From NCBI GenBank assembly GCA_030765065.1, contig CM060983.1, positions 54,434,067 to 54,498,066 of the forward strand: 64,000 nt of DNA, written 5' to 3'. Under the pieces are notes generated by a model. That model worked only from the letters and a program-made list of their open reading frames with translations, searched no databases and was not told where the DNA came from. This DNA comes from Deroplatys truncata. Its lineage: Eukaryota > Arthropoda > Insecta > Mantodea > Mantidae. The stretch's first letter is position 1. Every line of letters starts with the position of its first letter. This document shows, piece by piece, positions 377 through 59,370 of the stretch. The translations under genes and the position numbers were made by a program.

Positions 377-2435
377 TGAGGCAGTATTTTTAACACTTAA
401 ATAATTTCAGTCAAATTATATAATATGTAAATTTAATAACAGCCCGCCTTGAAGCAATATGTGTATGTAGTAATTTGTAAAATGTATGTAACAGTCATTG
501 CAAATGCTTATATTATTGTAAACATGTTCAATAATGTTATATGAATGCATTACGTAATTTAATAATGTAGGAGCTGTGAGAATAATAAGTTAAAAGTTGC
601 TAACAATGAGGTAACAATGAAGCAACCTTGAGGCAATAATGAGTTTGAAAGTTTAACAATACTACTTATGATTCTTGGAAGCAATAATGTAATTTTAGTG
701 GCAGTTTAAAAAATAGCCAATCAACAACCAGAAAAAGCTTTATTTAAATAAAGGTATTCTATTGAATTAGGAATAGCCAATCAGAGACTTCAAATACAGA
801 AATTTTCAACTTCAGACCTGCAGACAGTGCTCATAACTGGATGCGTTGCTTGTGCGTCCTCGAGAGATTTAATACGTATTCTTGTGAGACGAAAAATAAG
901 TTTACGTATTAAAAATGTAATTAATGAATAGCTCTCCATATCAGTAAAGTGTTATTTAAATCGCATCAAGCATTAATAAAAGGAGTGAAATAAAATTATA
1001 ACCTGTGTAAGCCTACATTGTTGTCGCATCACAACCTACTAAGTGAAACGTGTCTCTAAAATAAATACTGATGCAGCCGAGGCAACCATAAATATATAAT
1101 GCTTAAAGAAGCAGTTAAATTACAAAGTTAATATTTTTTTAAAACTTGGGGCAAAGGCCACCTGAAAGTACATTTGGGGCAAAGGCCACCTGAAAGTACA
1201 TTTGGAGCGAAGGCTACCCGAAAGTGGGTACTATACGTGCGGTTGCAACTACTACAAGTTCGGCTCCCCAACACTTAAATATAATACAACTCCTTCAATA
1301 CACCTACTTCAAATTGACGCCCAAAGCGTGGTGCAAATTGAAGTAGTTCAAATTCTTCAACCGTTTTAGTTTATTGTTGTTGAAGTTTTGCTGTTGATGT
1401 TAGCCACACGTTTGGGAAACCAACTTGAAGTAGTTATTGTCTTGGAGTTTATTTATTTAATCAGCTCCATGTATGAACGTCAATTTTGAAGTGGATTATT
1501 TGTTACGTAATATGCTACTACGTATGAGAAGCTGATATTTGAAGATGTATTTTTGTTGTTACGCTCCAAGTTTTAAAATATTATATTAACATTGTTATTA
1601 AACTGCTTCTATAGGTAGTATTTATGTATATGTTTGCCTCGGCTGCGTCAGTCTTACTTTAGAGACATGTTTCTCTTAATCAGGGCGTGGTACGACAAGA
1701 ATGTAGGCTTACACAGATTTAAGGTTTAAATTCACTTCTTTTTATTAATCCTTGAAACAAACTAAATAGCACTACACTGATATCAAGAGCTGTGAGATTC
1801 GTTTAATACTTGCACTTCGTTAACGCGTGCACTTAATTTTCGTTTCACACGAATACGTAATATTACTTTAGAGAACACATCTTCCATCCGGTCACTACCA
1901 AGGTCTGCAGGCAACTGAACATATTTCAACCGTGTAAACTTATAATTTTTTGTATTTCAGGTCTCTGATTAGCTATTCCTAGTCCAATAGAGTACCTGCA
2001 ATTTACTAAAGCTTATTCTGGCTGTTGATTGGCTATTTTAAACTGTCACAAATTTACATTATTGCTGCCCTAATCATGACTAGTAGTATTCAAACTCTCA
2101 AACTCATTATTGCCTCAAGGTTACCTCATTGTTACCTCATTGTTAGCAACCTTAAACTTATTATACTCACAGCTCTTACGTTATTAAATTACATAATGCA
2201 TTCACATAACATTATTGAACATGTTTACAATAATATAAGCATATGAAATGACTGTTACATCCATTTTACAAATTATTACATACATATTGCTTCAAGGCGG
2301 GCTGTTATTGAAAGTATGTATTATATAGTTCAAGTGTTAAAAATACTGCCTCAAAATAACGCAAAGATAACATCTTCTTCAAACTGGCTTTCCATATGTA
2401 GCAACAACAACGTAAAGACAATACAAACTACTTCA
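377..2435 (+). mobile_element. Solo LTR, family A copy 1, interrupted by copy 2
   Basis: Begins TGAGGCAG and ends ACTTCA. The 4-bp duplication AGGT is at 373-376 and 2436-2439. Net length without the inserted copy 2 and its extra AAAT is about 1,040 bp. U3-like CCAAT boxes (near 717 and 776) and AATAAA (near 975) fit a retroelement LTR. From about 1146 the 3' end is an array of units starting TTGGGGC, TTGGAGC, TTCGGCTC and TTGACGCCC; it resumes after copy 2 at 2358-2435. No internal retroelement coding sequence is attached. Confidence 0.88.
1339..2353 (-). mobile_element. Solo LTR, family A copy 2, nested in copy 1
   Basis: Inverted relative to copy 1: starts TGAAGTAG (the reverse of the ...ACTTCA terminus) and ends CTGCCTCA. 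The duplication AAAT is at 1335-1338 and 2354-2357. It is 1,015 bp long and landed inside the tandem array of copy 1. The pair looks superficially like a foldback element, but the two separate target duplications show two sequential solo-LTR loci. Confidence 0.88.
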
Positions 2436-2671
2436 AGGTCTTACAGTGTATGGGGATTTGTTGCATACACATTATTTTCATGTGATCACCAGAGCCGTGT
2501 CTAAATTAACGTAACTGCATTTGGCGAAATGATACAGAGTAATTGATCCACACTTAATTCATTACTCTGACGATGCATGGTTCCACTTTATGACTGTTTC
2601 GTCCCAAAATAACAGATTTTAGAGTACAGAGAAACCCGATTTTGAATGACGCGGAAATTGGTGTGTATTTT

Positions 2672-3494
2672 TACTTTCTCTATTACGTATAGTAGGGGAA
2701 GTATAGCAATCCACCCAAAAATTCGTTACGGAGATTTCACCGGAAATACATTTTTTGAGGCCCCCTGAATCCTAAAAAATGCATTTTTGGAAACATGTCC
2801 GTGTGTGTGTCTGTGAACAGCATAACTCAGAAACGAACAGTCGGATAAACACTAAACTTGGTATTTAGGTTCATTATCTTCCAGAGATGCGACACGAAGG
2901 TTTTCAAGAAAATACCTCCACCCCATATTACCCTTTACATGCAACATTTTTCGAAAATTTTAATTTTTTCTAAAATGGCTCTAAAGATTTTGATTAATAT
3001 ATCATATGTTTAAGATATTTTCATGACAAATGAAATGCATATCTCGAATTTTCTAGGAATGTCTGCAAAAGTATTCTTCATTGTGAACGACTTATGCATA
3101 ACTGGTAAACCGTAACAGATAGACAAAATTTTACTGCACAAAGAAATGTAGATCGCGTTAAAATACACAATTTATGTCATATACATTTTTTTGTTGGGTG
3201 AACCATTTTCGAGATATTGCTTGTTATTCCCTTAAATATTCTAACACATTTTCTCAAATTCGTGATTCAATTTTTTTGTCCTGGATACAAGAGAATGAAA
3301 TACTTTACATAGCAACCAGTGCTTCAAATATTTGACTATCGCTTAAAGGCTAGCGATTCCCTTGCATCTACAAGAAAATTAGTAATAAGATTGTCATCTC
3401 GATATCTCGATTAACATGAAGCATATGGAGAATAAGCGTTTGTAAAAATAGTTTGTACAAGAGTGGAGGAAGTCATGTGTGTGTAACACATCAG
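2672..3494 (+). mobile_element. Family B element copy, inserted in a T run
   Basis: Starts ACTTTCTCTA and ends near GTAACACATCAG. A short GT tract sits near 2803, followed by the family hallmark CATAACTCAGAAACGAACAG. It is inserted where the host transposase has a run of Ts, with about five Ts on each side. It has no coding capacity. Confidence 0.82.
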
Positions 3495-3748
3495 AGTTTT
3501 TGAGCAAACAGTACATACAGAGAGGTGCAGGAATTTCCTACTGACACAATTTTTTGAACAGTTGACTGAGTTGAATGTATGTCTGGATTTTTCCCACGTC
3601 TCTTTTATCGCGCATACAGCCGATGGGTCGTTAAATTTAATTCAGGAAGTTTTTGAAGATAGGATAATTAGTAAAGGCTTATGTCTCTTGCGATCCTCTA
3701 ATTTAGCTCTATGCGATTTTTGTCTATGGGGCAACTTGAAAAAAAAGT

Positions 3749-6055: not shown

Positions 6056-6996
6056 TCAGGGCAGTATTTTTAACACTTAAATAATATCAGTCTAATTATA
6101 TAATATATAAATTGAATAACAGCCCGCCTTAAAGCAATATGTGTATAAATAATACATAAAATGTATGTAACAGTCATTGTATTATGTTTATATTATTATG
6201 TACATGTATAATAATGTTATGTGAATGTATTGCGTAATTTAATAATGTAGGAGCTGTGAGAATAGAAGCCGAAAGTTTCTAACAATGAGGTAACAATCAG
6301 ATAACCTTGAGGCGATAATGAATTAGTAAGTTTAATAATGCTACTAGTAATTCTTGGAACAATAGTGTAATATATAAAACAGTTTATAAATATCCAATCA
6401 AAAACTAGAAGAAGCTTAAGTTAAATAAAAGTATTCTATTGGAGTAGGATTAGACAATCAGAGACTTGAAATAGAGAAATTCACAAATTTAAGCGGTAAA
6501 CGCCAGACGCTAGACGGCAGCGTACATGAGTAGTTCATTCGCTCGGTACGTATCCAGTGTGAGACGAAAATTCATTGCGGCGAGAAATTTAAAAAGTTTA
6601 CGTGTTAAAAAGTGCAAGTAAATATTAAATAATATCTCAGCTCTCTATATCAGTGATGTGTTATTTAATCGTGTGGAGGATTAATAAAAGGAATGAAGTA
6701 AAAATTATATTTTGTGTAAGCCTATATTCTTTAGCCGCATCACCCCCTGCTAAGAGATACATGTTTCTACAAATTAATATTGACGCAGCCGAGGCAAACG
6801 TAAGTATATGTAATATTTAAAGAAACATTAAAACACAAAGTTGATTCCTAAACGTTGGGGCGAAGGCCACCGAAAAGTGAACGTTGGGTTGAAGGTCACC
6901 GAAAACGTTGTACCATACGTGGAACAATACAATACAACCTACTCCAATTTGGCGCCTAAACGTGGCGCTAATAAAGTAAACAATATTACTTTCTCA
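6056..6996 (+). mobile_element. Solo LTR, family A copy 3
   Basis: Length 941 bp. The 5' terminus is mutated (TCAGGGCAG instead of TGAGGCAG); the 3' end is TTTCTCA. The 4-bp duplication GTAT is at 6052-6055 and 6997-7000. The 3' array (from about 6853) has two TTGGG-type units, an ACGTGG unit, and one unit, TTGGCGCCTAAACGTGGCGC, that is very close to a tRNA-Lys PBS. Confidence 0.85.
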
Positions 6997-7005
6997 GTAT
7001 GCAGT

Positions 7006-8183
7006 CCCAGAAATACCCGACCTGACGTATACATAGCGGTTGTTGTTTCAAACAAATGACTATGGTAGAAAGTACCACGCTTAGAAAGCTCAAGTTTGAA
7101 GTTTGGCGATGCTACGTTGTTTAGTAATTGTTTGGCAGCCATTAATAGAGAACTCTCTCAGCGAATTTGTAAACATGAATAAAACTGGCCATCGTTATGT
7201 GATACAATACTTTCATTTGAAAGGTCTTAGTCCAACTAATATTAAAGCTGAGCTAGATTCTACTCAGGGGAAGTCTGCTCCTTCGTTTACAACAGTAAAA
7301 TTTTGGGTGGCAGAGTTTAAGCGAGGCCGTACGAGCTGCCAAGACGAACATTGCAGTGGTCGACCAAATGAGGTGACCACGCCAGAAATTGTGAAGAAAA
7401 TCCACAAAATGGTATTGGATGACCGTCGACTGAAAGTGCGCGGGCTAGCAGACATTGTAGACATTTCAAAAAGTGCTATACATAACACACTAACTGAGAA
7501 TTTAGACTTGAGAAACCTGTGCGCAAGATGGGTGCCGTGTTTACTCACAATGGAACAAAAGCAGCGTCGTGAGGATGTTTCAGTCGAGTGTTTGGCGATG
7601 TTTCGCTGCAATACAAGATTTTTTGCGTCGATGTATAAACATGGATCAAACATGCGTCCATCACTTCACACCTGAGACGAAGGAACAGAAAAACAGTGGA
7701 TTGAAAGGGGAGAATCGGCTCCAAAGAAGGGGAAGGCTTCCATCTGAAGGCAAGGTCATGGCGTCAATGGCAAGTATTATACAAACTTATTGCAGCGTTT
7801 GAATGATGAAATCAAGCATAAACGTCCACATTTAGCGAAAAAGAAAGTTTTGTTCATCAAGACAATGCACCAGTTCACACATGCATTATCGCCATGGCCA
7901 AAATCAGTGAGTTACAGTTCTAATTGCTTCCTCGTGCATCATATTTGCCAGATTTAGCCCCCTCTGATTATTTTCTGTTTCCAAAGCTGGTGGTAAAAGA
8001 TTTGCCAACAATGAGTTGATGGCTATTTTGCAGAACTCGACGGTTCTCACTATAAGCACGGTATCGAAGATATTGAACATCGCTGGGAAAAATGTATAGA
8101 GCTGAAAGGTGACTATGTAAAGAAATAAATATGTTTTTTCACCAAAATGTTTGTGTTTTCTTAGTTAGGTCGGGTACTTCTGG
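7006..8183 (+). mobile_element. mariner transposon, inactive
   Basis: About 1.18 kb bounded by inverted repeats: left CCAGAAATACCCGACCTGAC (7007-7026), right GTTAGGTCGGGTACTTCTGG (8164-8183), with two differences. A TA follows the right end, but the left flank reads TC, so the TA target duplication is not perfect. It lies a few bases downstream of LTR-A copy 3. Length and terminal structure fit arthropod mariner elements. Confidence 0.85.
7175..8128 (+). pseudogene. mariner transposase pseudogene
   Basis: The open N-terminal part runs from MNKTGHRYVIQYF through the helix-turn-helix region (SPTNIKAELD, FTTVKFWVAEFKRGR) and the linker WVPCLLTMEQK, a mariner-family hallmark, before a frameshift near 7610. 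The first catalytic Asp block survives as NMDQTCVHHFTPET in the next frame. About 90 bp around 7770-7795 look deleted. The second Asp (HQDNAP) near 7857 follows another frameshift. The third is in YLPDLAPSDYFLF near 7950. The frame ends at a TAA after KGDYVKK (about 8113-8128). A DD34D transposase, clearly non-functional. Confidence 0.87.
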
Positions 8184-8778: not shown

Positions 8779-8836
8779 TCTTGATGTGTTACGTTCACAT
8801 GACTTTCTCTACGCTCTATTGCTTTAGTGAATATAC

Positions 8837-9886
8837 TGAGGCAGTATTTTTAATACTTGGATAATTTCAATTGTATTATATAATATGTAAATTGAATAAC
8901 AGCCCGCCTTGAAGCACTATGTATATAATATTTTTTTAAAATGTATGTAACAGTGATTGCAAATGCTTATATTATTGTAAACATGTTTAATAATGTTATG
9001 TGAATACATTACATACTTTAATAATGTAAGAGCTGTGAGAATAATAAGTTTAACGTTGCTAACAATGAGGTAACCTTGAGGCAATAATGAGTTTGAGAGT
9101 TTAAATGTTACTAGTCATGATTAGAGCAACAATAATGTAAATATTGTGACAGTTTAAAAATAGCCAATCAACAGCTAGAAGAAGCTTTAGTAAAATGCAG
9201 ATATTCTATTGCACTAGGATTAGCCGATCCGAGACTTGAAATACAGGAGCTTACGGGTTTTGACGGTTGAAATATGTTCAGTTGCCTGCAGACCTTGGTA
9301 GTGTCCGAATGGAAGATGTGTTCTCTAAAGAAATATTACGTATTCGTGTGAATCGTAAAATATGCATACACGTTAACTAAGTGCAAGTATTAAGAATCTC
9401 TTAATATCAGTGTAGTGCTATTTAATTTGTGTCAAGGAATAATAAAAAGAAGTGAATTCTTGTCGCATCACGCCCTGATTAAGAGAAACGTGTCTCTAAA
9501 GTAAGACTGAAGCAACCGAGGCAAATACAAACAAATAATATCTATAGAAGCAATTTAATAATAGTAAAGTTAAATATATTTTTTAAACTTGGAGCGTAAC
9601 AACAAAAATACATCTTCAAATCAGCTTCTCATATGTAGCAGCATATTACCTAACAACAGTAACTATTACGTAAAAAACAATCTTCTTCAAATTAACGCCC
9701 AAAGCGTAGTGCAAACTTCAACAATAAAACACTTTCTTAAATTGGTTTCCCAAGTGTGGAAATAAATAAATAACTCCAACAACAATAAACTACAACAGTT
9801 GAAGAACAATACTTCTTCAAGTTGGCTTCCCAAGCGTGAGGCTAATAACTTAAGTAAATAAACAACGTAAAGATACTACAACTTCA
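8837..9886 (+). mobile_element. Solo LTR, family A copy 4 (best-preserved array)
   Basis: 1,050 bp, TGAGGCAG...ACTTCA, with ATAC at 8833-8836 and 9887-9890. CCAAT is at about 9164 and AATAAA at 9441. The 3' array has unit starts at about 9589, 9621, 9692, 9742 and 9822. Most units begin near TTGGCTTCCCAAGCGTG and are preceded by CTTCAAA or a close variant, so the LTR terminus ACTTCA recurs inside the array. The empty site reads as continuous family B sequence, independent proof of both boundaries. Confidence 0.92.
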
Positions 9887-10319
9887 ATACAAACTATTTC
9901 TACCTAAGCCTATTTCCTATCTACTTCATTTTAATCTAAATAAACCTTTACTGAAAGAGCTACATCACACATTTCGTTATAGATACAAAGCGAACAGCAA
10001 TATTCAAATGTTTAAGAACTGGACGCTAAATGCTGGCCTTAAAATTCCATACTGTTTCCATGCAATCGCGAGAAACAAGAAGTATAGGAGTGTAAAGGAA
10101 TGACAAGGAATTGAACAGTTTTATTTGAACCATTAATAACCAATATCTCGGAAACAGCTTATGCCACGAAAAAGTTATTTGAAGTAATTTGTGTGTTTTA
10201 AAGAGACCTAAATTTTTTCGTGATGTACGTTTCTGTCTATCGCTTAACGTTTACCAGTTAAACTTTGCACAAAATTTCATCCGAATGAAGAGGACTTTAC
10301 AGACTGTTCCTTGAAAATT

Positions 10320-11310
10320 TGTGACGGTTTTATGTTTAAGTTCCACGTTGTGGTAGCCAATTTGTGGCGGTATTAGTGTTTGTTTGAAAGAATGCTACTG
10401 TTTATTTGCCGCACGTATAAAAGACAATTTGTCGCGGTCACTTCGTGTTATCTTTTACTGAGCGCCTGTTATTGTATTTAATTTTTGGGTTCACTGTCCT
10501 CCGGCTAGCTATGATCTCTCGGTCCAGCAAATCTCTTAATCAAGGTGTGTAAACGGAAAGAAGTTTTTATCCAAAGATAACACTGATAAAAGAATTTTTT
10601 ATACTTTTATTGTCGTAACACATTATGCACTTTCACATATTAATCTTGACACTCACCAAATTGAAACTGTTATAATAACTTCTTTACTGCACATTATTAA
10701 TTCGCGAACTTCAACTTTTTGTGTAATTAACTTTACGACACTTGAGATTTTTCATAACATTGCTACGCGTAACCTGCGAATCGATAAACTATGCTAGGTA
10801 TTCACCATGACTGTTTTTGTTAAACTCGACGACGTATAATGTACAAATGTTTCCGATGGACTGGAGCCGACGTGTAATGTACAAATGTTTCCGATGGACT
10901 GGGAGGGATCTACCTCTGACTTAGCTCTTTTTATACTCCTACACCCCGATATTCCTAAAGATTATAACTGAGCTGCTATTGGTTAAGAAAAATACGCGCC
11001 AACATTAGCGTCTATATTTATATCCAATGAAAATTACGAAAGCATATGCTCTAGGGAAAATGTTCCAGCAAATTCTAAGAAAAACGCGCCAATATTACGT
11101 CATTTGCTCGTCTCTAATAATGATAAACAGCTCACCCCCTCGCTACATTATTGCACGCTATTATTGTCAGTTTCAGTAAGGCCGTTAAAACTTACTTCTC
11201 GACAATAATTACAATCAACAAACATCTCAAATCAATGTCACATAACAATGCATATTCACACTACAATCACTCTGACATTTACATAATTTGTGATACAAAT
11301 TACTGCGTCA
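10320..11310 (-). mobile_element. Solo LTR, family E
   Basis: 991 bp with TG...CA ends. AATT duplications are at 10316-10319 and 11311-11314, where the host B copy is broken. Minus-strand promoter logic: CCAAT near 10980, TATA box (GTATAAAAAGAGC, about 10924-10938), then AATAAA (about 10606-10611). The last 43 bp of its own 3' end (10320-10362) hold a PBS-like unit, TTGGCTACCACAACGTGG, preceded by CACAAA. It is unrelated to family A in U3. The 4-bp duplication suggests Ty3/gypsy type. Confidence 0.85.
10830..10902 (-). repeat. 38-bp tandem duplication downstream of the LTR-E TATA box
   Basis: Two copies (10830-10864 and 10868-10902) of a 35-bp sequence with one mismatch, period 38 bp. On the LTR's own strand they lie just after the TATA box and each contains CCAGTC, so the probable transcription start region is duplicated. 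Confidence 0.85.
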
Positions 11311-11899: not shown

Positions 11900-12919
11900 T
11901 GAAGTAGATGGTTTGTTGTATTGTTATTTTTAAATTATTTGCACCACGCTTTGGGCGTCAATTTGAAGTAGGTTCTATTGAAGGAGTTGTATTACATTTC
12001 AACTGTTGGGAGCCAAACTTGAAGTTCGTTGCAACCGCACGTATAGTACCCGGTTTCCAGTAGCCTTCGCCCCAAATGTACTTTCCGGTGGCCTTTGCCC
12101 CCCCCAAAATATTTAAAAATATTAACTTTGTAATTTGACTGTTTGTTTAAATATGATATTTATGTTTGCCTCGGCTGCGTCAGTATTATTGTTAGAGACA
12201 TGTTTCTCTTTACAGGGTTGTGGTGCGACTGAAGTATGTAGGCTTACACAGATTATAATTTTACTTCACTACATTTATTAATCCTTGACACAAATTAAAT
12301 ATCACTTCTCTGATATAGAGAGAGAGCTGTGAGACTTTTTTTTTAATCACTTGCACTTTTTAACACGTAAAACTATTTTCGTCTCACACGAATACGTATT
12401 AAATCTCTCCAGGACGTGTCTCGCGTCCGGTTAGGAATACTGTCTACAACCAACGCGTCCAGTTAGGAGCACTGATTTCTACCGCCTAAATTTGTAAATT
12501 TATGTATTTCAAGCCTCTGATTTGCTAATCCTACTACAATGGAATACCTTCATTTAACTAAAGCTTTTTTCTGGTTGTTGATTGGCTATTTATTAAACTG
12601 TCTCAAAATTTACATTATTGTTGCTCCAATAATAGCTAGCAGCACTACTAAACCTTCCTACTCATTATTGCCTCAAGGTTACCTCATTGTTAGCAACTTT
12701 TAACCTATTATTCTCACAGCTCCTACATTATTAAATTACGTAATGCATTCACATAACTTTATTGAACATGTACATAATAATATAAATATTAATACAATGA
12801 CTGTTACATGCATTTCACATACTATACAACACACACACACTGCTTTAAGGCGGGCTGTTATTGAGTTATGTATTATATAATTAGACTGAAATCATTTAAG
12901 TGTTAAAAATACTGCCTCA
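11900..12919 (-). mobile_element. Solo LTR, family A copy 5
   Basis: 1,020 bp, TGAAGTAG...CTGCCTCA, with CTCT at 11896-11899 and 12920-12923. The array occupies about 11900-12107, with reversed units such as CACCACGCTTTGGGCGTCAA and blocks of GGCCTTTGCCCC. The minus-strand U3 carries a CCAAT box near 12592. Confidence 0.9.
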
Positions 12920-14089: not shown

Positions 14090-14965
14090 TGAGGCAGTAT
14101 TTTTAACACTTAAATGATTTCAGTCAAATTATATAAATATAAATTCAATAACAGCCCACCTTGAAGCAATATGTGTATGTAATAATTTGTAAAATGTATG
14201 TAACAGTCATTGTATATGCTTATATTATTGTATCCATGTGTAATAATGTTATGTGAATATATTATGTAATTCAATAATGTAGGAACTGTGAGAAATAGTA
14301 AAAAATTGATAACATAGAGGTAACAATGAGGTAACTTTGAGGCAATAATGAGTAAGAAGGTGTAATAATGCTACTAGTCATAATTGGAGCAACAATAATG
14401 TAATTTTTCTGACAGTTTATAAAATAGCCAATCAACAGCCAGAAAAAGCTTTAGTTAAATGAAGGTATTCTATTGGATTAGGAATAGCCAATCAGAAACT
14501 CAAATATAGCAAAATTTGCAAATCTAGAAGTCAGTTACTTGTAGACAGTGCTCATAACTGGACGCGTTGGTGTTACTAATCAGACGCGAGATGCGTCCTC
14601 AAGAAATTTTATACATATTCGTGTCAAACAAAAATAGTTTATGTGTTTAAAAAGTGCAGGCAATTAACAAAAGAATCTCACAGCTCTCTATATCAGTGAA
14701 GTGTCATTTAAATCGTGTCAAACATTAATAAATGGAGTGAAGAAAAACTTAAAATCTGTGTAAGCCTACATTCTTCAGCCGCACCACGCCTGCTAAGACA
14801 TTCATGTCTCTAAAAATAAATACTGACGCAGCCGAGGCAAACATAAATATTTAATACTTAAAGAAACAGTCAAATTACAAAGTTAATATTTTTTTTAAAC
14901 TTGGGGCTAATAAAATATCTTACTCAAATTGGCGTCCATACGTGGGACTAATAAATTACTTCTCA
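14090..14965 (+). mobile_element. Solo LTR, family A copy 6 (short array)
   Basis: 876 bp, TGAGGCAG...TTCTCA, with CACA at 14086-14089 and 14966-14969. After the U5 it keeps only about two units (TTGGGGCTAATAAAATATC and TTGGCGTCCATACGTGGGAC), so it is 140-170 bp shorter than copies 2, 4 and 5. Confidence 0.87.
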
Positions 14966-20586: not shown

Positions 20587-21400
20587 TTTTTACTTTCTCT
20601 ACTACATATAGTAAGTAGGGGAAGTATTGCATTCCCCCCAAAATTTAATACCCAGATTCGATATCGGAAATACATGTTTCGAGGTGCCCCGAGTCCAAAT
20701 AAAGCATTTTTGGAAACATGTCCGAGTGTGTGTTTCTATCTGTGAACAACATAACTCAAAAACGAAAAGTCGGATAAATACCAAACTTGGTATTTGAATT
20801 TAGTATCTTCCAGGGATTTCACAAATAGATGTTCAAGAAAATTCCCCATCCCAGACTAATCCTTACATGAAACTTCTTTCGAATATTTTGATTTTCTCAA
20901 AAATGACTCTAACGATTATGGTTAAAATATCATATGTTTAAAATATATTCATGGCAAATGAAATGTATATCTTGAATTTTCGGTGAATACTCCTCTTCAT
21001 TCTGAATGACGGTTGCATAACTGGTAAACCGTAAAGGAAAGACAAAATTTTACTCCACAAACAATGTAGGTCTCACACAATCTATGTCATATACACTTCT
21101 TTTTTCCTTTCTTTTTAAGTGAACCATTTCCGACATATTAATTGCTATTTGTTTGAATTTTCCAATAGTTATACTTTTTCTCAAATGGGAATTCGTTATT
21201 CGTCTTTTTATGTCCTGGACATGCAAAGAGAATGGAATACTCCACATAGCAACCAGCTCTTAAAAGATTTGACTATCGCTTAAAGCCTACCATTTCCCAT
21301 TGAATCTACAAGAAAATTAGAAATAAGATGGAGAATAAGCGATTGTAAAAATAGCTTGTACAAGAGTAGAGAAACTCATATGAGTGCAAGACGTCATATT
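20587..21400 (+). mobile_element. Family B copy
   Basis: ACTTTCTCTACTACATATAG through GTAGAGAAACTCATATGAGTG, about 815 bp. All family blocks are in order, with a short GTGTGTG tract near 20724. Confidence 0.8.
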
Positions 21401-21545
21401 TTTTTGTTTTGGTGCTTTAAAAATTCTACGAGATTTTCTGAATCCAATGATGTGTCACAGTATAGGTATTCTCAATGTTTAAGCCCTTTAGACGAAGATT
21501 TAAATATGGGGTCACCTAGGCCACATCCCTAAAACGCTTAAATTT

Positions 21546-26075: not shown

Positions 26076-26211
26076 ACCGGAACTACCTGGCTTACACAGC
26101 ATTGTATGAATGGCTGACCTCGGATGCCGATTCATTTACCTCCCTCCTTATTCGTTTTAAAATTATTGTCCGTGATCCAGAAGTATTTAAAGTAAATTCT
26201 CCTTATTATCC

Positions 26212-29200
26212 TTATTACTTTCTCTACTACGTATAGTAAGTAGGGGAAGTATTGTATTCCACCCAAAAATTCGATACCGAGATTTCACAGGAAATACATG
26301 TTTTGACACCCCCTGAATCCAAAAAAGCATTTTTGGAAACATGTCCGTGTGTGTGTCTGTGTGTGTGTCTGTGAACAGCATAACTCAGAAACGAACAGTC
26401 AATAAACACCAAACTTGGTATTTAAGTTCAGTATCTTCCAGATATGCGACACGAAGGTTTTCAAGAAAATCCCCCCACCCCAGACTACCCTTTACGTGGA
26501 AGATTTTTCGAAAACTTTAATTTTCTCAAAAATGGCTAAAACGATTTTGATTAAAATATCATAGGTTTAAGATATTTTCATGACAAATAAAATGTATATC
26601 TTGAATTTTCTGAGAATGTCTCGAAAAGTATTCTCCATTGTGAACGACTTTTGCATATCTGGTAAACCATAAGAGATAGACAAAATTTTACTACACAAAG
26701 AATGTAGATCGCGTTAAAATACACAACTTATGTCATATACATTTTTTTTTGTTGAGTGAACCATTTTCGAGATATTGCTTGTTATTCCCTTAAATTTTTC
26801 AATACTTATTTTCTAAAATGGGAATTCGTTATTCATTTTTACTTTCTCTATTACGTATAGTAAGTAGGGGAAGTATGTATTCCACCCAAAAATTCGATAC
26901 CGAGATTTCACCGGAAATACATGTTTTGAGATCCCCTGAATGCAAAAAAAGCATTTTTGGAAACATGTCCGTGTGGGTCTGTGTGTCTGTCTGTGAACAG
27001 CATAACTCAGAAACGAACAGTCGGATAAACACCAAACTTGGTATTTAGGTTTAGGATCTTCCAGAGATGCGACACGAAGGTTTTCAAGAAAATCCCCCCA
27101 CCCCAGACTACCCTTTACATGGAAGATATTTCGAAAATTTTAATTTTCTCAAAAATGGCTCTAACGATCTTTAGTAAAATATCATATGTTTAAGATATTG
27201 TCAGGACAAATGAAATGTATATCTCGAATTTTCTGGGAATGTCTCCAAAAGTATTCTTCATTGTGAACGACTATTGCATAACTGGTAAACCATAAGAGAT
27301 AGACAAAATTTTACTACACAAAACATGTAGATCTACACAATTTATGTCATATACATTTTTTTTATTGAGTGAACAGTTTTCGAGATATTGCTTGTTATTC
27401 CCTTAAAGTTTCCAATACTTATACTTTTCTCAAACTCGTTATTCATTTTTACCTTCTCTACTACGTATAGTAAGTAGGGGAAGTATTGCATTCCACCCAA
27501 AAATTCGATACCGAGATTTCACCGGAAATACATGTTTTGAGACCTGCTGAATCCAAAAAAAGCATTTTTGGAAACATGTCCGTGTGTGTGTCTGTGTGTC
27601 TGTGTGTGTGTGTGTCTGTGTGTGTGTCTGTGTGTGTGTGAACAGCATAACTCAAAAACGAACAGTCGGATAAACACCAAACTTGGTATTTAGGTTCAGT
27701 ATCTTCCAGAGATGAGACACGAAGGTTTTCAAGAAAATCCCCCCACCCCAGACTACCCTTTACATGGAACATTTTTCGAAAATTTTAATTTTCTCAAAAA
27801 TGGCTCTAACGATTTTGTTTAAAATATCATATGTTTAAGATAATGCCATGAGAAATGAAATGTATATCTCGAATTTTCTGGGAATGTCTCCAAAAGTATT
27901 CTTCATTGTGAATGACTTTTGCATAACTGGTAAACCATAAGAGATAGACAAAATTTTACTACACAAAAAATGTTGATCTCGTTAAAATACACAACTTATG
28001 TTATATACATTTCTTTTGTTGAGTGAACCGTTTTCGAGATATTGCTTGTTATTCCCTTAAATTTTCCAATACTTATACTTTTTCTCAAATTCGTTATTCA
28101 TTTTTTTATGTCCTGGACTTGCAAAGAGAATGGAATTCGACACATAGCAACCAGCGTTAAAATATTTGACCATCGCTTAAAAGCTACCATATTCCCCTTG
28201 CATCTACAAGAAAATTAGCAATAAGATTGACATCTCGATATCTCGATTAACATAAAGCATATGGAGAATAGGCGTTTGTAAAAATAGATTGTACAAGAGT
28301 AGAGAAAGTCATGTGAGTGTAACACATCAGATTTTTTACTTTCTCTACTACGTATAGTAAGTAGGGGAAGTATTGCATTCCACCCAAAAATTCGATACCG
28401 AGATTTCACCGGAAATACATGTTTTGAGACCTCCTGAATCCACAAAATGCATTTTTGGAAACATGTCCGTGTGTGTGTGTGTCTGTGTGTGTGTGTGTGT
28501 ATGTGTGTCTGTGAACAGCATAACTCAAAAACGAACAGTCGGATAAACACCAAACTTGGTATTTAGGTTCAGTATCTTCCAGAGATGCGACACGAAGGTT
28601 TTCAAGAAAATCCCCCGACCCCAGACTACCCTTACATGGAACATTTTTCGAAAATTTTAATTTTCTCAAAAATGGCTCTAACGATTTTGATGAAAATATC
28701 ATATGTTTAAGATAATGTCATGAGAAATGAAATGTATATCTCGAATTTTCTGGGAATGTCTCCAAAAGTATTCTTCGTTGTGAACGACTTTTGCATAACT
28801 GATAAACCATAAGAGATAGACAAAATTTTACTACACAAAAAATGTAGATCGCGTTAAAATACACAACTTATGTCATAAACATTTTTTTGAGTGAATCATT
28901 TTCGAGATATTCCTTGTTATTTCCTTAAATTTTCCAATACTTATACTTTTTCTCAAATTCGTTATTCATTTTTTATCTCCTGGACATGCAAAGAGAATGG
29001 AATGTGCCACATAGCAACCAACGTTAAAATATTTGACTATCGCTTAAAAGCTACCATATTCCTCTTGCATTTACAAGAAAATTAGCAATAAGATTGACAT
29101 CTCGATATCTCGATTAACATGAAGCATATGGAGAATAGGCGTTTGTAAAAATAGATTGTACAAGAGTAGAGAAAGTCATGTGAGTGTAACACATCAGATT

Positions 29201-30440
29201 TTTTTATGTCCTGGACATGCAAAGAGAATGGAATGCGCCACATAGCAATCAGCGCTTAAAATATTTGACTATCGCTTAAAACCTACCATATTCCCCTTGC
29301 ATCTACAAGAAAATTAGCAATAAGATTGACATTTCGATATCTCGATTAACATGAAGTATATGGAAAATAAGCGTTTGTAAAAATAGTTTGTACAAGAGTA
29401 GAGAAAGTCATGTGAGTGTAACACATCAGATTTTTTTGTCTTGGATATGCAAGGAGTTATAATCTGTGGCAAAGGGAATGGTGCTGCAGCTAGCAACCAG
29501 CTATTAAGAGATATGTATGTCCTTAAAGGCTACTGTTACTTTCTCTACTACGTATAGTAAGTAGGGGAAGTATTGTATTCCACCCAAAAATTCGATACCG
29601 AGATTTCACCGGAAATACATGTTTTGAGACTCCCTGAATCCAAAAAATGCATTTTTGGAAACATGTCTGTGTGTGTGTCTGTGTGTCTGTCTGTGAACAG
29701 CATAACTCAAGAACGAACAGTCAGATAAACACCAAACTTGGTATTTAGGTTTAGTATCTTCCAGAGATGCGACACGAAGGTTTGCAAGAAAATCCCCCGA
29801 CCCCAGACTACCCTTTACATGGAAGATTTTTCGAAAATGTTAATTTTCTCAAAAATGGCTCTAACGATTTTGATTAAAATATCATATGTTTAAGATATTT
29901 GAATGACAAATAAAATGTATATCTTGAATTTTCTGGGAATGTCTCCAAAAGTATTCTTCATTGTGAACGACTTTTGCACAACTGGTAAACCATAAGAGAT
30001 AAGACAAACTTTTACTACACAAAAAATGTAGATCGCGTTAAAATACACAATTTATGTCATATTACATTTTTTTTGTTGAGTGAACCATTTTCGAGATATT
30101 GCTTGTTATTCCCTTAAATTTTTCAATACTTATTTTCTCAAATGGGAGTTCGTTATTCGTTTTTATGTCTTGGATATGCAAAGAGCATTAATCTGCGGCA
30201 AAGGGAATGGTGCTGTACCTAGCAACCAGCTATTAAGAGTAATGTCTATGCTTAAAGGCTACTGTATTTTTATATTGCCGTTGTAAATATATATTCCCCT
30301 TACATCTACAAGAAAATTAGCAATAAGATAGAGTCTGCAAATGTATATCTCGATTAACATGAAGTAGATGGAGAATAAGCAATTGTAAAAATAGTTTGTA
30401 CAAGAGTAGAGAAAGTCATGTGAATGTAACACATCAGATT
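26212..30440 (+). repeat. Head-to-tail array of family B units
   Basis: Forward unit starts (ACTTTCTCTAC) at about 26217, 26840, 27449, 28336 and 29537. Spacings are about 620, 610, 890 and 1,200 bp. The first two units stop at the same internal T run (TTCGTTATTCATTTTT), where the next unit begins. Two further 5'-truncated ends lie at 29199-29432 and 29433-29535. Each full unit has its own (GT)n tract of different length. Complete junctions read CACATCAGATTTTTT then ACTTTCTC. No coding content. Confidence 0.85.
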
Positions 30441-31726
30441 TTTTTATTCCTCAAAAATGATTTAACTATATTGATTAAATACCGTATATTCATATATTTT
30501 AATTGCAAATATAATGTATATAAGAATACAACTTTCTGAGAATATTCTAAATTCCTCGTCTTTCGGAAGGAGTTTTCTATTATTTGACATAACTGGTAAA
30601 CTGAAACGTAGTATACAAAAAATGTGTATCTCGTTAAGATGAACAATATGTTTCAAATAGAATTAAAAGCAAACGCCATTAAAACAGAATGTATCGTAAT
30701 TGGTGGGTTCTCGGAAGGTTTACAAATAAATGATGTAGTAATTAAATGCGTGGAGCAATTTAAGTATCTAGAATCTATAATAGATAAATCTGGCACTTGT
30801 GAAAAATATATTACTTGTAGAGTAAATTGTGCAAGGAAGGCGATTAGATCCCTGAATAGTCTTTTATGGAATAGGAATTTCACCAGAAATACCAAACAAC
30901 AAATTTTACAACTAACAGAAAGTATACTTACATATGGGTCCGAAAGTTGGACATTAAAAGGAAGGATGCAGAGAAGAGTTTTAGCGACAGAAATGGACGG
31001 ACTTCGAAGAAGTATGAGAATATCCAGATTACATGTTAGAAACACCTACATCAGACAAGAAATGGATGCACAAGAAACTGTTAAAGACAGAATATCAAAA
31101 AGAGATTGTTAATGGAATGGACATGTACAACGGATGTCGGTGGCCTGGAGTGTGCCAGGTAGAGGAAAGCGGGGAAGAGCAAGAAGAACATGGTATGAGG
31201 GAATATATGGTGATATGATGAAAAGGGACAATGGGATGATAGGAATCTCTGGAAAGCGGGGATCGAGAGGAAACTGCTGTAACGTGGAAAACCTCTAAAA
31301 TAAAATAAATAAACATATCTATTTCAAATAAGTTTTTTGTAGCTGCAGCCATTTCGGAGATATCCATTGTTATCGATTTGAATGTTTTCAGTACATTATG
31401 ATTTTTTAAAATTGCTGTCGCTAGTCACTTGTTTCTCGAAATGTGTTAAAAAAGTATAGATTTTTTTAAGTTCCCTTGTTTATCATCACTGTGTTTTTAC
31501 TGTTTTTCATTATCGCTTATTACTGCAATTACACACACACAAACACCCATGCTCATGGGCAGCATATAACGTCTATATTTTAAACATGTGACTATCGATT
31601 CCGTGTACTGTATTCGCCGTGTAAGTACAATGAAATGTGTAATGGAACTATATCTGCCAAGGTTTATCTCTTTTGACATGAGGTAGGTAGAAAAATGATC
31701 CTTTGTAAGAATATTTTGTAAAAGCT
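30441..31726 (+). mobile_element. Family B copy, 5'-truncated, with LINE insert
   Basis: Begins in the middle of B (CCTCAAAAATGATTTAAC) right after the array and runs on to about 31726. A truncated LINE lies at 30660-31321, with TTTCAAATA on both sides. Confidence 0.7.
30660..31321 (+). pseudogene. 5'-truncated RTE-like LINE, reverse transcriptase C-terminus
   Basis: An open stretch (about 30660-31112) encodes KTECIVIGG, INDVVIKCVEQFKYLESIID (the FKYLG-type motif that follows the RT core), ESILTYGSESWTL and EMDGLRRSMRISR, characteristic of arthropod endonuclease/reverse-transcriptase ORFs. A frameshift after ISKRDC moves the rest (WNGHVQRM, GKRGRARRTWYEGI) to another frame. The tail is an AAATAAAATAAATAAAC run. 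Flanking TTTCAAATA at 30651-30659 and 31322-31330. Confidence 0.82.
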
Positions 31727-31738
31727 ATATAAAAAAAA

Positions 31739-32634
31739 TCTGATGTGTTACACTCACATGACTTTCTCTACTCTTGTACAATCTATTTTTACAAACGCCT
31801 ATTCTCCATATGCTTTATGTTAATCGAGATGTCAATCTTATTGGTAATTTTCTTGTAGATGCAAGGGGAATATTGTAGCTTTTAAGCGATGGTCAAATAT
31901 TTTAACGCTGGTTGCTATGCGGCGCATTCCATTCTCTTTGCAAGTCCAGGACATAAAAAAATGAATAACGAATTTGAGAAAAAGTATAAGTATTGGAAAA
32001 TTTAAGGGAATAACAAGCAATATCTCGAAAACGGTTCACTCAACAAAAGAAATGTATATGACATAAGTTGTGTATTTTAACGAGATCTACTTTTTTTGTG
32101 TAGTCAAATTTTGTCTATCTCTTATGGTTTACCAGTTATGCAAAAGTCGTTCACAATGAAGAATACTTTTGGAGACATTCCCAGAAAATTCGAGATATAC
32201 ATTTCATTTCTCATGACATTATCTTAAACATATGATATTTTAATCAAAATCGTTAGAGCCATTTTTGAGAAAATTAAAATTTTCGAAAAATGTTCCATGT
32301 AAAGGGTAGTCTGGGGTGGGGGGATTTTCTTGAAAACCTTCGTGTCGCATCTCCGGAAGATACTGAACCTAAATACCAAGTTTGGTGTTTATCCGACTGT
32401 TCGTTTTTGAGTTATGCTGTTCACAGACACACACACACACACACACAGACACACACACACACAGACACACACACAGACACACACACACACAGACACACAC
32501 ACGGAAATGTTTCCAAAAATGTTTTTTTTGGATTCAGGAGGTCTCAAAACATGTATTTCCGGTGAAATCTCGGTATCGAATTTTTGGGTGGAATGCAATA
32601 CTTCCCCTACTTACTATACGTAGTAGAGAAAGTA
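31739..32634 (-). mobile_element. Family B copy, inverted, long AC tract
   Basis: TCTGATGTGTTACACTCACATGAC through CGTAGTAGAGAAAGT, about 900 bp, near consensus. The compound (AC)n/AGAC tract spans about 32427-32503, the longest in this orientation. Confidence 0.85.
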
Positions 32635-32644
32635 ATAATGATGG

Positions 32645-36346: not shown

Positions 36347-37172
36347 TTACTTTCTCTACTACGTATAGTAAGTAGGGGAAGTATTATATTCCACCCAAAA
36401 ATTCGATACCGAGATTTCACCGGAAATACATGTTTTGAGACCCCTGAATCCAAAAAAAGCATTTTTGGAAACATGTCCGTGTGTGTGTGTGTCTAAACAG
36501 CATAACTCAGAAACGAACAGTCGGATAAACAGCAAACTTGGTATTTAGGTTCAGTGTCTTTCAGAAATGCGACACAAAGGTTTTCAAGAAAATCCCCCCA
36601 CCCCAGATTACCTTTTACATGGAACATTTTTCGAAAATTTTAATTCTCTCAAAAATGGCTCTAACAATTTTGATTAAAATATCATATGTTTAAGATGTTT
36701 TCATGACAAATGAAATTTATATCTCGAATTTTCTGGGAAGGTCTCTAAAAGTATTCCTCATTGTGAACAACTTTTGCATAACTGATAAACCATAAGAGAT
36801 AGACAAAATTTTACTACACAAAAATGTAGATTCGCGTTAAAATACACAATTTATGTCATATACATTTTTGTTGTTGAGTGAACCATTTTCGAGATATTGC
36901 TTGTTATTCCCTTAAATTTTCCAATACTTATAATTTTTCTCAAATTCGTTATTCTTTTTTTTTTGTCCTGATAATGCCAACAGAATGCAATATAGCAACC
37001 AGCTCTTAAAATATTTGACTATCGCTTAAAGCCTACCAATTCCCCTTGCATCTACAAGAAAATTAGCAATAAGATTATCATCTCGATTAACATGAAGTAG
37101 ATGGAGAATAAGCGTTTGTAAAAATAGTTTGTACAAGGGTAGAAAAAGTCATGTGAGTGTAACACATCAGAA
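36347..37172 (+). mobile_element. Family B copy, near consensus
   Basis: TACTTTCTCTACTACGTATAG through GTGAGTGTAACACATCAG, about 825 bp. GTGTGTGTGTGT at about 36479-36492 is followed by CTAAACAGCATAACTCAG (GTGAACAG in most copies). Confidence 0.85.
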
Positions 37173-37599
37173 TTTTCTGACTGTAATCGAGAAACTCGCT
37201 CACGAAGCCTTTTCATTCTTCTGCAAATAACACAACATTCTATTCATCATCATTCACCGTAGGATTATGCTCGTCTTTGGAATTCCCCTCTGGAAGATAT
37301 AACGTACTGCTGAAACGTTATGCAGTTCAAGAGTCCAGCCTAATCTGCTGCTTCATTAGAGTGCAATACTTCCCCTACTTACTATACGTAGTAGAGAAAG
37401 TAAAAATATTTAATGCGAACATTTAGATAGTTTGGGATGCGGGAGCGAAGCATTTGGTGGAGAAGTGATAAAGAATGTGAATTTCTTCGTTCCCTAAGCT
37501 GAACCAATGCAGTAATTAATTTGGTGTAACATGATCAAATCGACGGAGATTGCATACAAAGTGTGCACACGTATTTTGAACCTGCTGAATGGAATGAAA
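37173..37599. other. Unassigned, with an isolated B end at 37356-37403
   Basis: Only 37356-37403 is assignable: the inverted B terminus (GCAATACTTCCCCTAC, TACGTAGTAGAGAAAGTAA) with no body. Confidence 0.6.
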
Positions 37600-41584: not shown

Positions 41585-42187
41585 TGAGGGAAAAAGACTG
41601 TTGCAGATGTTTATTTTTTGTATATATTATTTGTCCCACGCTTTGGGAGCCAAATTTGATGAAGGTATTTTGTTGTATTATAATTCAACTGTTGGTAAGT
41701 CGAATTTGTAGTAGTTGCAACCGCACGTATGGTAAACAGCTTCCGGTAGCCTTCGCCCCAAATGTACTTTCAGGTGGCCTTTGTCCCAAGTTTAAAAAAA
41801 AATATTAACTTTGTAATTTGACTGTTTCTTTAAATATTATCTATTTATGTTTGCCTCGGCTGCGTCAGTATTATTGTTAGAGACACGTTTCTCTTAGCAG
41901 GATTGTGGTGCGACTAAGAATGTAGGCTTACACAGATTATAATTTTACTTCACTCCTTTTATTAATGCTTGATACGATTTAAATAGCACGTAAACTATTT
42001 TTGTCTCACACGAATACGTATTAAATCTCTCGAGGACACTTTCTGTGTCTAGTTAGCAACACTGTTTGCAGGGAACTGACTTCTGAAATTGTAAAATTTT
42101 CTCCTTTTCAGTTTCTGATTGGCTAATCCTACTCCAATAGAATAACTTCATTTAACTAAAGCTTTTTCTGGTTGTTGATTGGCTATT
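41585..42187 (-). mobile_element. LTR family A copy 7, truncated by a B element
   Basis: Begins TGAGGGAAAAAG, then reversed array units (CCCACGCTTTGGGAGCCAAA; CGCCCCAAATGTAC), GCCTCGGCTGCGTCAG, and U3 sequence up to the CCAAT region. At about 42187 it stops and an inverted B starts, so the U3 end and right target duplication are lost. Confidence 0.78.
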
Positions 42188-42653
42188 TTTATTGTATTGG
42201 AAAATTTAAGGAAATAACAAGCAATATCTCGAAAACGGTTCACTCAACAAAAGAAATGTATATGACATAAGTTGTGTATTTTAACGCGATCTACATTTTT
42301 TGTGTAGTAAAATTTTGTCTATCTCTTATGGTTTACCAGTTATGCAAAAGTCGTTCACAATGAAGAATACTTTTGGAGACATTCCCAGAAAATTGGAGAT
42401 ATACATTTCATTTCTCATGAAATTATCTTAAACATATGATATTTTCATCAAAATGGTTAGAGCCATTTTTGAGAAAATTAAAATTTTCGAAAACTCTTCC
42501 ATGTAAAGGGTAGTCTGGGGTGGGGGGATTTTCTTGAAAACCTTCGTGTCGCATCTCTGGAAGATACTGAACCTAAATACCAAGTTTGGTGATTATCCGA
42601 CTGTTCGTTTTTGAGTTATGCCGTCCACAGACACACACACACAGACACACACA

Positions 42654-42692
<39 letters not shown>

Positions 42693-43854: not shown

Positions 43855-45135
43855 CGCCTAACCAATCCTGGCATCTGCTGAACGCATTATAGAACACTCG
43901 ATAAGTTTCTGCAGCAGAAATATTAGGAGAAAGTACTTTGTTGTTGAGGTAGTTTGCACCACGCTTTTGGGCGTCAATTTGAAGTAGTATTATTGTTTAT
44001 GTTTTGGTGTTAGCCCAACGTTTGGGAAGCCAATTTGAAGTAGTTGATATTGTCTTGGAGTTTATTTATTTCTCTCCACGTATGGATGTCAACTTTGAAG
44101 TAGTGTTACTGTTATTGGAGATTGTTTGTTTATGCAATATGCTGCTACGTATGAGAAGCCGATTTGAAGATGTATTTTTGTTGTTTCACTCCAATTTTAA
44201 AAAATATATTTTAACTTTGTTATTAAACTGCTTCTATAGATAGTGTTTATGTTTGTTTTTGCCTCGGCTGCTTCAGTATTACTTTAGAGACACGATTCTC
44301 TTAATCAGGGTGTGGTGCGACAAGAATGTAGGCTTACACAGACTTTAAAGTTTAAATTCACATCTTTTTATTAATCCTTGACACAAATTAAATAGCACTA
44401 CACTGATATTAAGAGCTGTGAGATTCTTTAATTTAATACTTGCACTTTGTTATCGCGTATACATATTTTACGATTCACACGAATACGTAATATTTCTTTA
44501 GAGAACACATCTTCCACCCGGTCACTATCAAGGTCTGCCAGCAACTAACATATTTAAACCGTCCAAACCCGTAAACGTCTGTATTTCAAGTCTCTGATTG
44601 GTTAATCCTTGTACAATAGAATACCTGCAGTTTACTAAAGCTTTGTCTAGCTGTTGATTGGCTATTTTTAAATTGTCTAAAATTTACATTCTCGTTGCTC
44701 TAATCATGACTAGTAGCATTTAAACTCTCAAAACTCATTATTGCCTCAAGGTTACCTCATTGTTACTTCATTATTAGCAACTTTAAACTTATTATTTTCA
44801 CAGCTCTTACATTATCAAACTACGTAATGCATTCACATAACATTATTAAACGTGTTTACAATTATATAAGCATATGCAATGACTGTTACATACATTTTAA
44901 AAATTATTACATACATATTGCTTCTAGGCGGACTGTTATTGATTTACATATTATATAATTTAATTGAAATTACTCAAGTGTTAAAAATACTGCCTCAAAG
45001 GCACTCTGGATATTGTTTTCTGTTTCATTAAGCGTATGGGAATTTGTTGTATAAACTTTAACTTTAAGTATTCCCCGCAGATAATAATAATCACATGGAT
45101 TTAGATTTGTAGATTGAGTAGGTCAGTTAGTTATT
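43855..45135 (-). pseudogene. IS630/Tc1-like transposase C-terminus split by an LTR
   Basis: On the minus strand, 45135-44998 reads NLNPCDYY (third acidic block), GILKVKVYTTNSHTLNETEN and NIQS. After the LTR it resumes at 43927-43855 with NISAAETYRVFYNAFSRCQD and ends GYHFEAFL with a stop. Apart from an L-to-R-like change after the DYY block and the insertion, the frame is well kept, so this copy is younger than those at 0.2-4.8 kb. Confidence 0.8.
43928..44997 (-). mobile_element. LTR family A copy 8, inside a transposase
   Basis: About 1,070 bp, ending CTGCCTCA at 44997. The left terminus is decayed (AGAAAGTACTTTG without the leading TG). Flanks TAGG (about 43924-43927) and AAGG (44998-45001) would be a 4-bp duplication with one mismatch. 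The array includes CACCACGCTTTTGGGCGTCA and CCCAACGTTTGGGAAGCCAA. Confidence 0.78.
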
Positions 45136-49405: not shown

Positions 49406-49409
49406 AAAG

Positions 49410-50639: not shown

Positions 50640-51463
50640 TGAGGCAGTTTTTTTAACACTTAAATTATTTCAGTCTAATTATATAAATATAAATTCAATA
50701 ACAACCCACCTTAAAGCAATATATGTATGTAACAATATATAAAAATGTATGTAACAGTCATTGTATATGTTTGTATTATTGTATCCATGTGCAATAATGT
50801 TATGTGAATATATTACATAATTTAGTAATGTAGGAGCTGTGAGAATAATAGGTCAAAGGTTGCTAACAATGAGGTAACCTTGAGGCAATAATGAGTTTGA
50901 GAGTTTAAATGTTACTTGTGATTCTTGGAAGCAATAATGTAATTTTAGTGACAGTTTAAAAATATCCAATCAACAAACCAGAAAAAGCTTTAGTTAAATG
51001 AAGGTATTCTATTGGAGCAGGATTAGCCAATCAGATGCTTGAAATTCAGAAATTTACAAGTTTAGGCGGTTGAAATCAGTTCAGTTGGTTGCAGACAGCG
51101 TTACTAACCGGACCAGTTTACGTGTTAAAAAGTGTAGTTAATTAATAAAAAGAATCTCACAGCTCTCTATAGCAGTGAAGTGTTATTTAAATCGTATCAA
51201 GCATTGATAAAAGGAGTGAATTAAAATTATAATCTGTGTAAGCCTGCATTCTTGTCGCACCACTACCCTGCTAAGAGAAACGTGTCTCTAACAAATACTG
51301 ACGCAGCCGAGGCAAACATAAATATTTAAAGAAACAGTAAAAATACATTTGGGGCGAAGGCTACCGGAAACCGGATACCATACGTGCGGTTGTAACCAAC
51401 TTCAAGTTCGGTTCCCCAACAGTCGAAATACGATACAACTCCTTCTAAAATACTCCTTTCTCA
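50640..51463 (+). mobile_element. Solo LTR, family A copy 9 (shortest)
   Basis: 824 bp, TGAGGCAG...TTTCTCA, with AACT at 50636-50639 and 51464-51467. The array is reduced to about 115 bp (TTGGGGCGAAGGC and TTCGGTTCCCC units). CCAAT boxes and AATAAA positions are conserved. Confidence 0.87.
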
Positions 51464-58789: not shown

Positions 58790-59370
58790 TAACCTACATA
58801 AAGATTAAATGGCGGCAATTTGAAGTTGTTTTTATTGACGGAGTTCAATTGTTATTATTTATTACGTTATTTTTAGCACCACGCTTTGGGAGCCAATTTG
58901 AAGTAGGTAGTTGTTTCACTATGGAAAGCCGATTTGAAGTAGGAGTTGTATTATATTTCGACTGTTGGGGAGCCGAACTTGAAGTATGGTAAAAGGTTTC
59001 CGGTAGCCTTCACCCCAAGTTTAAAAATATTAACTTTGTAATCTGTTTCTTTAAATATTATGTATTTATGTTTGCCTCGGCTGCGTCAGTATTTACCTAT
59101 ATTTTTTAGAGACATGAATGTCTTAGCAGGGAGTGGTCCGACTGAAGAATGTAGGCTTACGCAGATTATAATTTGTACTTCACTCCATTTATTAATTCTT
59201 TAAACGATTAAATAACACTTCACTGATATAGAGAGCTGTGAGATTCTTTTATTAATTACTTGCTCTTTTTAACACGTAAACTATTTTCGTCTCACACGAA
59301 TACATATTAAATTTCTCGAGGACGCATCTCGCGTCCGGTTAGGAACACTGTCAACAACCAACACGTAAGC
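58790..59370 (-). mobile_element. LTR family A copy 10, truncated
   Basis: Reversed array (GGCGGCAATTTGAAGTTG; CACCACGCTTTGGGAGCCAA; ACTATGGAAAGCCGATTTG), GCCTCGGCTGCGTCAG, and R-U3 down to the CGTCTCACACGAATAC region. It stops near 59370 before the CCAAT and TGCCTCA terminus. The array start is not precisely defined. Confidence 0.75.

Follow-up and report, generated by a model that had tools for sequence, protein, structure and literature searches.

The 3' ends of long terminal repeats (LTRs) in a retrotransposon family of Deroplatys truncata, here termed family A, and in its young relatives A' are built of tandem units resembling primer-binding sites (PBSs), and the outer LTR boundary differs between copies by whole units. 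Both LTRs of A' elements carry such units, a PBS adjoins the LTR, and some elements have a second PBS outside it. One and the same type of unit is located inside or outside the LTR depending on the copy, and the LTR end of relatives with no units at all is an internal position in longer ones. It is very likely that the elements contain tandem PBSs, that the PBS from which synthesis is primed sets the end of U5, and that the LTR becomes longer or shorter in steps of complete units. The analyzed window is a stretch of 64,000 nucleotides (C9:54434067-54498066), and the search was extended beyond it to the assembly (4.29 Gb, 818 contigs).

Self-comparison of the window revealed ten family A LTRs, eight of them complete at both ends and two left-truncated. 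Exact 4-bp target site duplications (TSDs) flank seven of the eight complete LTRs (AGGT, ATTT, GTAT, ATAC, AGAG, CACA, and AACT). Since each pair of TSDs encloses a single LTR and no two TSDs are alike, these copies were classified as solo LTRs. The LTRs with exact TSDs have TG..CA ends in six of seven cases, the exception being c6057, which starts with TC; the eighth complete LTR, c44997, has an imperfect TSD (CCTT/CCTA) and an end without CA. Additional CA|TSD-like sites at most 250 nt from the end were found once each in c2353, c8837, and c14090, the background being 0.25 per test using the flanks of other copies.

The solo LTR under study, c8837 (8837..9886, plus strand; TGAGGCAG...CAACTTCA, TG...CA), is flanked by the TSD ATAC (left 8833..8836, right 9887-9890) and includes four PBS-like units on the same strand: unit 0 at 9611..9644 (CATCTTCAAATCAGCTTCTC..., profile E 8.4e-5), unit 1 at 9682..9716 (TTAACGCCCAAAGCGTAGTGC), unit 2 at 9732..9765 (TTGGTTTCCCAAGTGTGG), and unit 3 at 9812..9846 (TTGGCTTCCCAAGCGTGAGGC). 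The plus-strand solo LTR c377 (377..2435, TSD AGGT) has three units detected by the profile (unit 1 at 1251..1280, unit 2 at 1304..1338, and unit 3 at 2374..2406), the last lying past the nested solo LTR c2353 (1339..2353, minus strand; TSD ATTT; units 1512-1547, 1460-1494, 1399-1433), which is inserted within the PBS array of c377; the c377 LTR continues past the nested copy to 2435. Solo LTRs were also identified for c6057 (6056..6996, plus; TSD GTAT; unit 6939-6972), c12919 (11900..12919, minus; TSD AGAG; units 11996-12028, 11937-11971), c14090 (14090..14965, plus; TSD CACA; unit 14919-14952), and c50640 (50640..51463, plus; TSD AACT; single unit 51397-51429). The LTR c44997 (43928..44997, minus) contains units at 44139-44172, 44068-44103, 44009-44043, and 43952-43987. 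The left-truncated copies are c59352 (58821..59352, minus; 3' end placed by motif alone; units 58955-58987, 58910-58942, 58872-58906) and c42190 (41629..42190, minus; units 41680-41711, 41629-41664), position 41629 being the edge of its last unit.

Two further features of the window are recorded. A second repeat family (2668-3501, 20587-21405, 26209-32638, 36347-37176, 42194-42830, 48593-49408) consists of copies of about 0.5-0.9 kb, often tandem or nested, which start near ACTTTCTCTACTACGTATAGTA; several of them end near AGTAGAGAAAGTCATGTGAGTG, and the ends form a short inverted match. An open frame at 7100-7675 (plus strand) appears to resemble the N-terminal part of a mariner-type transposase.

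The 24 units in the 3' parts of family A LTRs have the common layout [end motif ..CA]-AA-[PBS-like core]-[AT-rich spacer]. A 34-node profile built from these hand-collected units (10 LTR copies) recovers every one of them in the window (E<=0.0029), with the best other match at E 0.18, and none of 20 Markov-random control windows has a profile match at E<0.01; the tandem arrays described in the earlier note are real. Profiles built with one copy left out regained 22/24 units at E<0.05 (missed were c2353_0, E 0.089, and c2353_1, E 3.3), and at this threshold they also matched 10339-10364 (E 0.011 and 0.017) and 7072-7102 (E 0.046) outside the units. Viral contigs scanned for the LTR start and for the unit pattern gave 0 matches each. 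The 20-mer that had been quoted as the core of the unit occurs nowhere exactly in the window (2 mismatches at 6949, 3 at 14929), the closest window core being the unit of c6057, but has 317 exact copies in the assembly, the reversed control having 0. ACTTCA, formerly proposed as the LTR terminus, is not general: c6057 and c50640 end with CTTTCTCA and c14090 with CTTCTCA, and the terminus would be whatever precedes the chosen PBS.

The likeness of the core to tRNA-Lys was assessed using 25 reference tRNA sequences. The top mean score for the 24 units was obtained for tRNA-Lys(CTT) (15.5), followed by Glu-TTC (12.8), the shuffle maximum being 10.0. Nonetheless, Lys-CTT ranks first in just 11/24 units and the typed 24-unit consensus scores equally for Lys-CTT and Glu-TTC, and therefore the window data suggest, rather than prove, that the units are tRNA-Lys PBSs. 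ARAGORN (bacterial code) found no tRNA genes in the window.

Two-LTR elements of family A' were recognized from exact copies of the 20-mer 3.2-3.5 kb apart. All A' loci were found via this one 20-mer in the first 100 of its 317 places and constitute a biased sample. Exact 4-bp TSDs were observed for 9/12 candidate LTR pairs, the left end of L010 being placeable two ways; as for the other three pairs, the left end of L012 is beyond the retrieved stretch, L031 has no TSD, and L016 represents two single LTRs. The nine elements are 4.1-4.8 kb long, with LTRs of 0.96-1.24 kb and an interior of 2.15-2.34 kb, and in all of them LTR3 is preceded by TTTCTAGTGGGGCATA, which is not a long purine run. The longest interior open reading frame (ORF) comprises 236-346 aa as it stands. 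The two ORFs scanned, those of L014 and L019, contain no reverse transcriptase (RT) or integrase, the best Pfam match being Apolipoprotein, below the cut-off; only weak coiled-coil-like matches to the A' ORF were obtained from Pfam and PDB. With a short interior and no RT or integrase in the scanned ORFs, the A' elements look non-autonomous, and they were therefore not assigned to a superfamily. The 4-bp TSD of A' and window copies is found in Ty3/gypsy elements and is not peculiar to that superfamily.

The profile built from the window units gives 123 matches at E<1 in 34 retrieved loci (L008 and L009 overlap). Whether both LTRs of full-length elements carry the array had been proposed as a check, and in these A' relatives both LTR5 and LTR3 do, with identical lists of cores in 8/9 elements and a difference of one base in a core of L032. 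In L031, which has no TSD, the profile detects units in the LTR5 region and none in LTR3; this locus departs from the pattern of the others and is perhaps a recombinant. On visual inspection, the 28-bp repeats TTGGGGCAAAGGCCACCTGAAAGTACAT of family A LTRs (1146-1225 and homologous stretches) look similar to the repeats in the leader of A' (GGGGCGAAGGAACCAGGA), and might perhaps represent a leader once taken into the LTR.

In ten elements (the nine defined by TSDs and L012) the sequence next to LTR5 on its 3' side is AA-TTGGC..GTGGGGC. The PBS, which the note had asked to be located, thus lies directly after LTR5 in 10/10 of these A' relatives; it shares the unit layout and starts 3 nt past the CA of the LTR in every case. 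The used PBS is the exact 18-nt complement of the canonical tRNA-Lys(CTT) end in L009, L010, L013, and L014, so that the expected match of the units to a canonical tRNA-Lys end is borne out in 4/10 elements. L019, L020, and L030 have this complement with an additional A, L011 and L012 have the CAGAACG form, and L032 has a one-base variant. The extra base formerly ascribed to the core is thus found in variants of the unit, whereas used PBSs without it exist; where a used PBS contains an additional A or GA, priming would have to be bulged. For TGGCGCCCAACGTGGGGC, 18/18 complementarity to the 3' end of D. truncata tRNA-Lys is predicted. The degenerate cores of the window, with Lys first in fewer than half of the units and the consensus tied with Glu-TTC, might also be taken for sites bound by a protein of the host or of the element, or for an unrelated satellite captured once, but this is very improbable given that an A' unit occupies the required position of the PBS in all ten elements and in four of them agrees with the canonical tRNA-Lys(CTT) end at 18/18 positions.

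The PBS that follows the LTR is the outermost one in six elements (L009-L013 and L032), where it is succeeded by the shared leader ..ACCAGGAA or a close variant. The remaining elements (L014, L019, L020, and L030; 4/10) have a second PBS outside the LTR, 52-69 nt downstream and before the leader. The core with the extra A is the PBS in L019, L020, and L030 but lies inside the LTR in L011, L012, and L013, and the CAGAACG form of the PBS on the leader side is found inside the LTR of L015. Among 20 more loci, the exact 20-mer is followed, directly or one unit later, by the CAGAACG PBS and the leader in 8 (L036, L040-L044, L047, and L049), as counted by sequence order. Two of the 20, L053 and L054, belong to family A proper; L053 carries the exact 20-mer and is 78-89% identical to c8837 over two body blocks, and of its three CA|TSD-like sites that match the left flank, one is CA|AAAT at LTR length 1005. 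In L044, the region between offsets -61 and +266 from the 20-mer includes five PBS-type cores in a row, with a perfect one at +60 and CAGAACG-type PBSs at +123 and +266, each followed by leader sequence.

The set of single A'-type LTRs comprises 23 copies from L001-L034 (L002 and the pairs excluded, L014b and both L016 LTRs included). An accepted CA|TSD end was obtained for 18 of them (lengths 993-1271), whereas L001, L021, L024, L025, and L034 have either no usable start or a site far past the expected length. Additional CA|TSD-like sites within 1.1 kb are present in 6/18 (L005, L007, L016a, L016b, L017, and L028), for which the site at the expected length was chosen; the chance background estimated with other flanks averages 0.29-1.26 for single A' LTRs and is 0.16 per 500 bp in the window test. 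In total, 28 LTR ends display 14 distinct terminal 6-mers, and in 19/28 LTRs the terminal 6-mer recurs before units of other copies, compared with a background of 8.0% (13,660 NNNNCA words in retrieved loci). Unit D, characterized by a long spacer (~95-110 nt), is terminal in L010, L015, and L016b and internal, with more in-LTR units after it, in L005, L011, L012, L018, and L033.

Shifted ends are also observed in the window. The terminus of c50640 (TSD AACT) aligns at the junction of units 1 and 2 of c12919 and c377, so that relative to c50640 one unit is added in c12919 and two units are added in c377. The terminal spacer of c50640 resembles the spacer of unit 1 in c377 (0/300 mononucleotide shuffles) and, more weakly, the spacers of c59352 and c12919 (4/300 and 6/300 shuffles, respectively). 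The terminal spacers of c44997 and c2353 resemble two different internal spacers of c8837 (0/300 shuffles each), and those of c377 and c8837 are each other's best match; for the terminal spacers of c6057, c12919, and c14090 no good match was found elsewhere (16, 87, and 104 of 300 shuffles, respectively).

The 3' end of the LTR, as the earlier note had supposed, appears to relocate between units, stopping at a given unit in some copies and running through it in others. A different history, in which a single PBS was captured into U5 and then multiplied by ordinary minisatellite growth inside an LTR with a fixed outer end, could account for units that are tandem and for unit types that follow one another in differing order among copies. 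We consider it unlikely, as the outer end with its 14 terminal 6-mers is not fixed, a second PBS remains beyond the LTR in four of the ten elements, three copies terminate with unit D while five have more units after it, and c50640, c44997, and c2353 terminate in spacers that other copies contain internally.

The direction of the shift can be judged from relatives without units. L033A is a two-LTR element (TSD AATT; LTR 828 bp; LTRs 96.4% identical) with no units in its LTR and an ordinary layout, LTR..GACA|AATTGGTGCCCAGAATGTGGGGC, in which the PBS directly follows LTR5; its TSD coincides with the first four bases past the LTR. L002A, a solo LTR of 788 bp (AAGT), is likewise without a unit. 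The L033A LTR can be aligned over its entire length with L043 (88.3%) and as two blocks with L038, L045, L051, and L003, the comparisons of the last three with zero-unit relatives being based on BLAST rows. The position corresponding to the L033A end in L038 and L043 reads GCGACA, followed by a decayed PBS, which is internal in these longer relatives, a spacer, and a second PBS. The end of L002A falls at position 1424 in L003 and at 1400 in L045, 119 and 108 nt inside the respective LTR ends placed by TSDs. Judging from these alignments, the LTR end of the zero-unit relatives is an internal position in the longer ones. Outward movement of the end between L033A or L002A and L038, L043, L003, L045, and L051 is the simplest reading, because ordinary elements lack the array. 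The repeated outward movement formerly proposed gains support from these pairs, but the LTR end probably moves in both directions.

Perfect 18-nt complements of tRNA-Lys are found at 4/10 used PBSs, 0/64 units inside LTRs, and 0/4 outer unused PBSs (28 LTRs; Fisher 1.5e-4); the perfect core of L044 sits among other units and, if it lies inside the LTR, would break the 0/64 pattern. The computed duplexes with the canonical tRNA-Lys tail have a median energy of -38.2 kcal/mol at used sites vs. -32.4 kcal/mol for in-LTR units (p 0.002). This suggests that a unit persists in U5 only when its PBS is weakened. In retroviruses, the used PBS is rewritten by copying of the tRNA during plus-strand strong-stop synthesis, and the confinement of perfect complements to used sites fits such rewriting.

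From the structure of the elements we infer priming at these sites and the following mechanism. The leader RNA would contain at least two tandem PBSs of the tRNA-Lys(CTT) type, each with a usable LTR-end motif (..CA) in front of it. These PBSs would compete, and the one that primes minus-strand synthesis would set the end of U5, so that both LTRs receive the sequence 5' of that PBS and the sequence 3' of it remains in the leader. Priming from a downstream PBS would make the LTR longer and priming from an upstream one would make it shorter, in either case in whole-unit steps. The used PBS would be rewritten to a perfect tRNA complement via plus-strand copying of the primer, whereas PBS copies left in U5 would decay or carry one or two extra bases; units may be gained, lost, and shuffled via template switching at repeats. 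By analogy with A', family A of the window, represented by solo LTRs only, presumably works in the same way.

Instead of a choice between PBSs, read-through into the tRNA primer, or aberrant integration of a cDNA with the primer still attached, could have lengthened the LTR, considering that retroviral circle junctions may keep primer-derived sequence. The chances of this are very small: by eye, the AT-rich spacers between cores do not resemble the body of tRNA-Lys, the units are found in both LTRs, and a 3' LTR lengthened in this way would not pass on the change, because U5 is copied from the 5' LTR. Within the preferred reading, that of competing PBSs, we only tentatively raise the idea that the array is an adaptive store of spare cassettes, each with an LTR end and a primer site. 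The U5 end, the integrase end, and the PBS would then be reset in each round, the weakened PBSs of U5 might serve as decoys, for instance against 3' tRNA fragments that block PBSs, and the LTR length would be set by replication and not inherited.

No description of tandem PBSs inside LTRs was found in the open literature searched by title and start of abstract. LTR retrotransposons primed by tRNA-Lys, e.g., those of the Ty3/gypsy kind, are similar in having TG..CA LTRs, a 4-bp TSD, a PBS just past LTR5, and a conserved sequence before LTR3, whereas here tandem PBSs are present in and outside the LTR and its 3' end is unfixed. In MAL-type isolates of HIV-1, a 23-nt insertion originates from partial duplication of the PBS, a natural duplication of PBS sequence beside the functional PBS, although it lies downstream of the PBS, outside the LTR, and the part of the source consulted describes no LTR shift (PMC3185550). 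The LTR1 lentiviral vector has an additional PBS, so that, as proposed here, the extent of copying depends on two PBSs within the same RNA; according to the consulted part of its description, the vector is engineered and has no tandem array in U5 (PMC5542766). The non-autonomous element of the RLG_Quinta/RLG_Cereba pair in einkorn wheat shares the PBS and LTR ends with its autonomous partner, but in the consulted text a single PBS is described and the LTR termini are stated to be identical, unlike here (PMC11302176). Pao is similar in having tandem repeats within an insect LTR, which are described as R and not as PBSs.

Related elements have 3' LTR boundaries that lie whole units apart, apparently depending on primer choice. 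The annotation, dating, and classification of elements usually take LTR boundaries to be constant. The A and A' families provide natural material for the question of how reverse transcription picks among competing primer sites, and they offer a possible explanation of LTR length variation as well as a warning for LTR-based classification.
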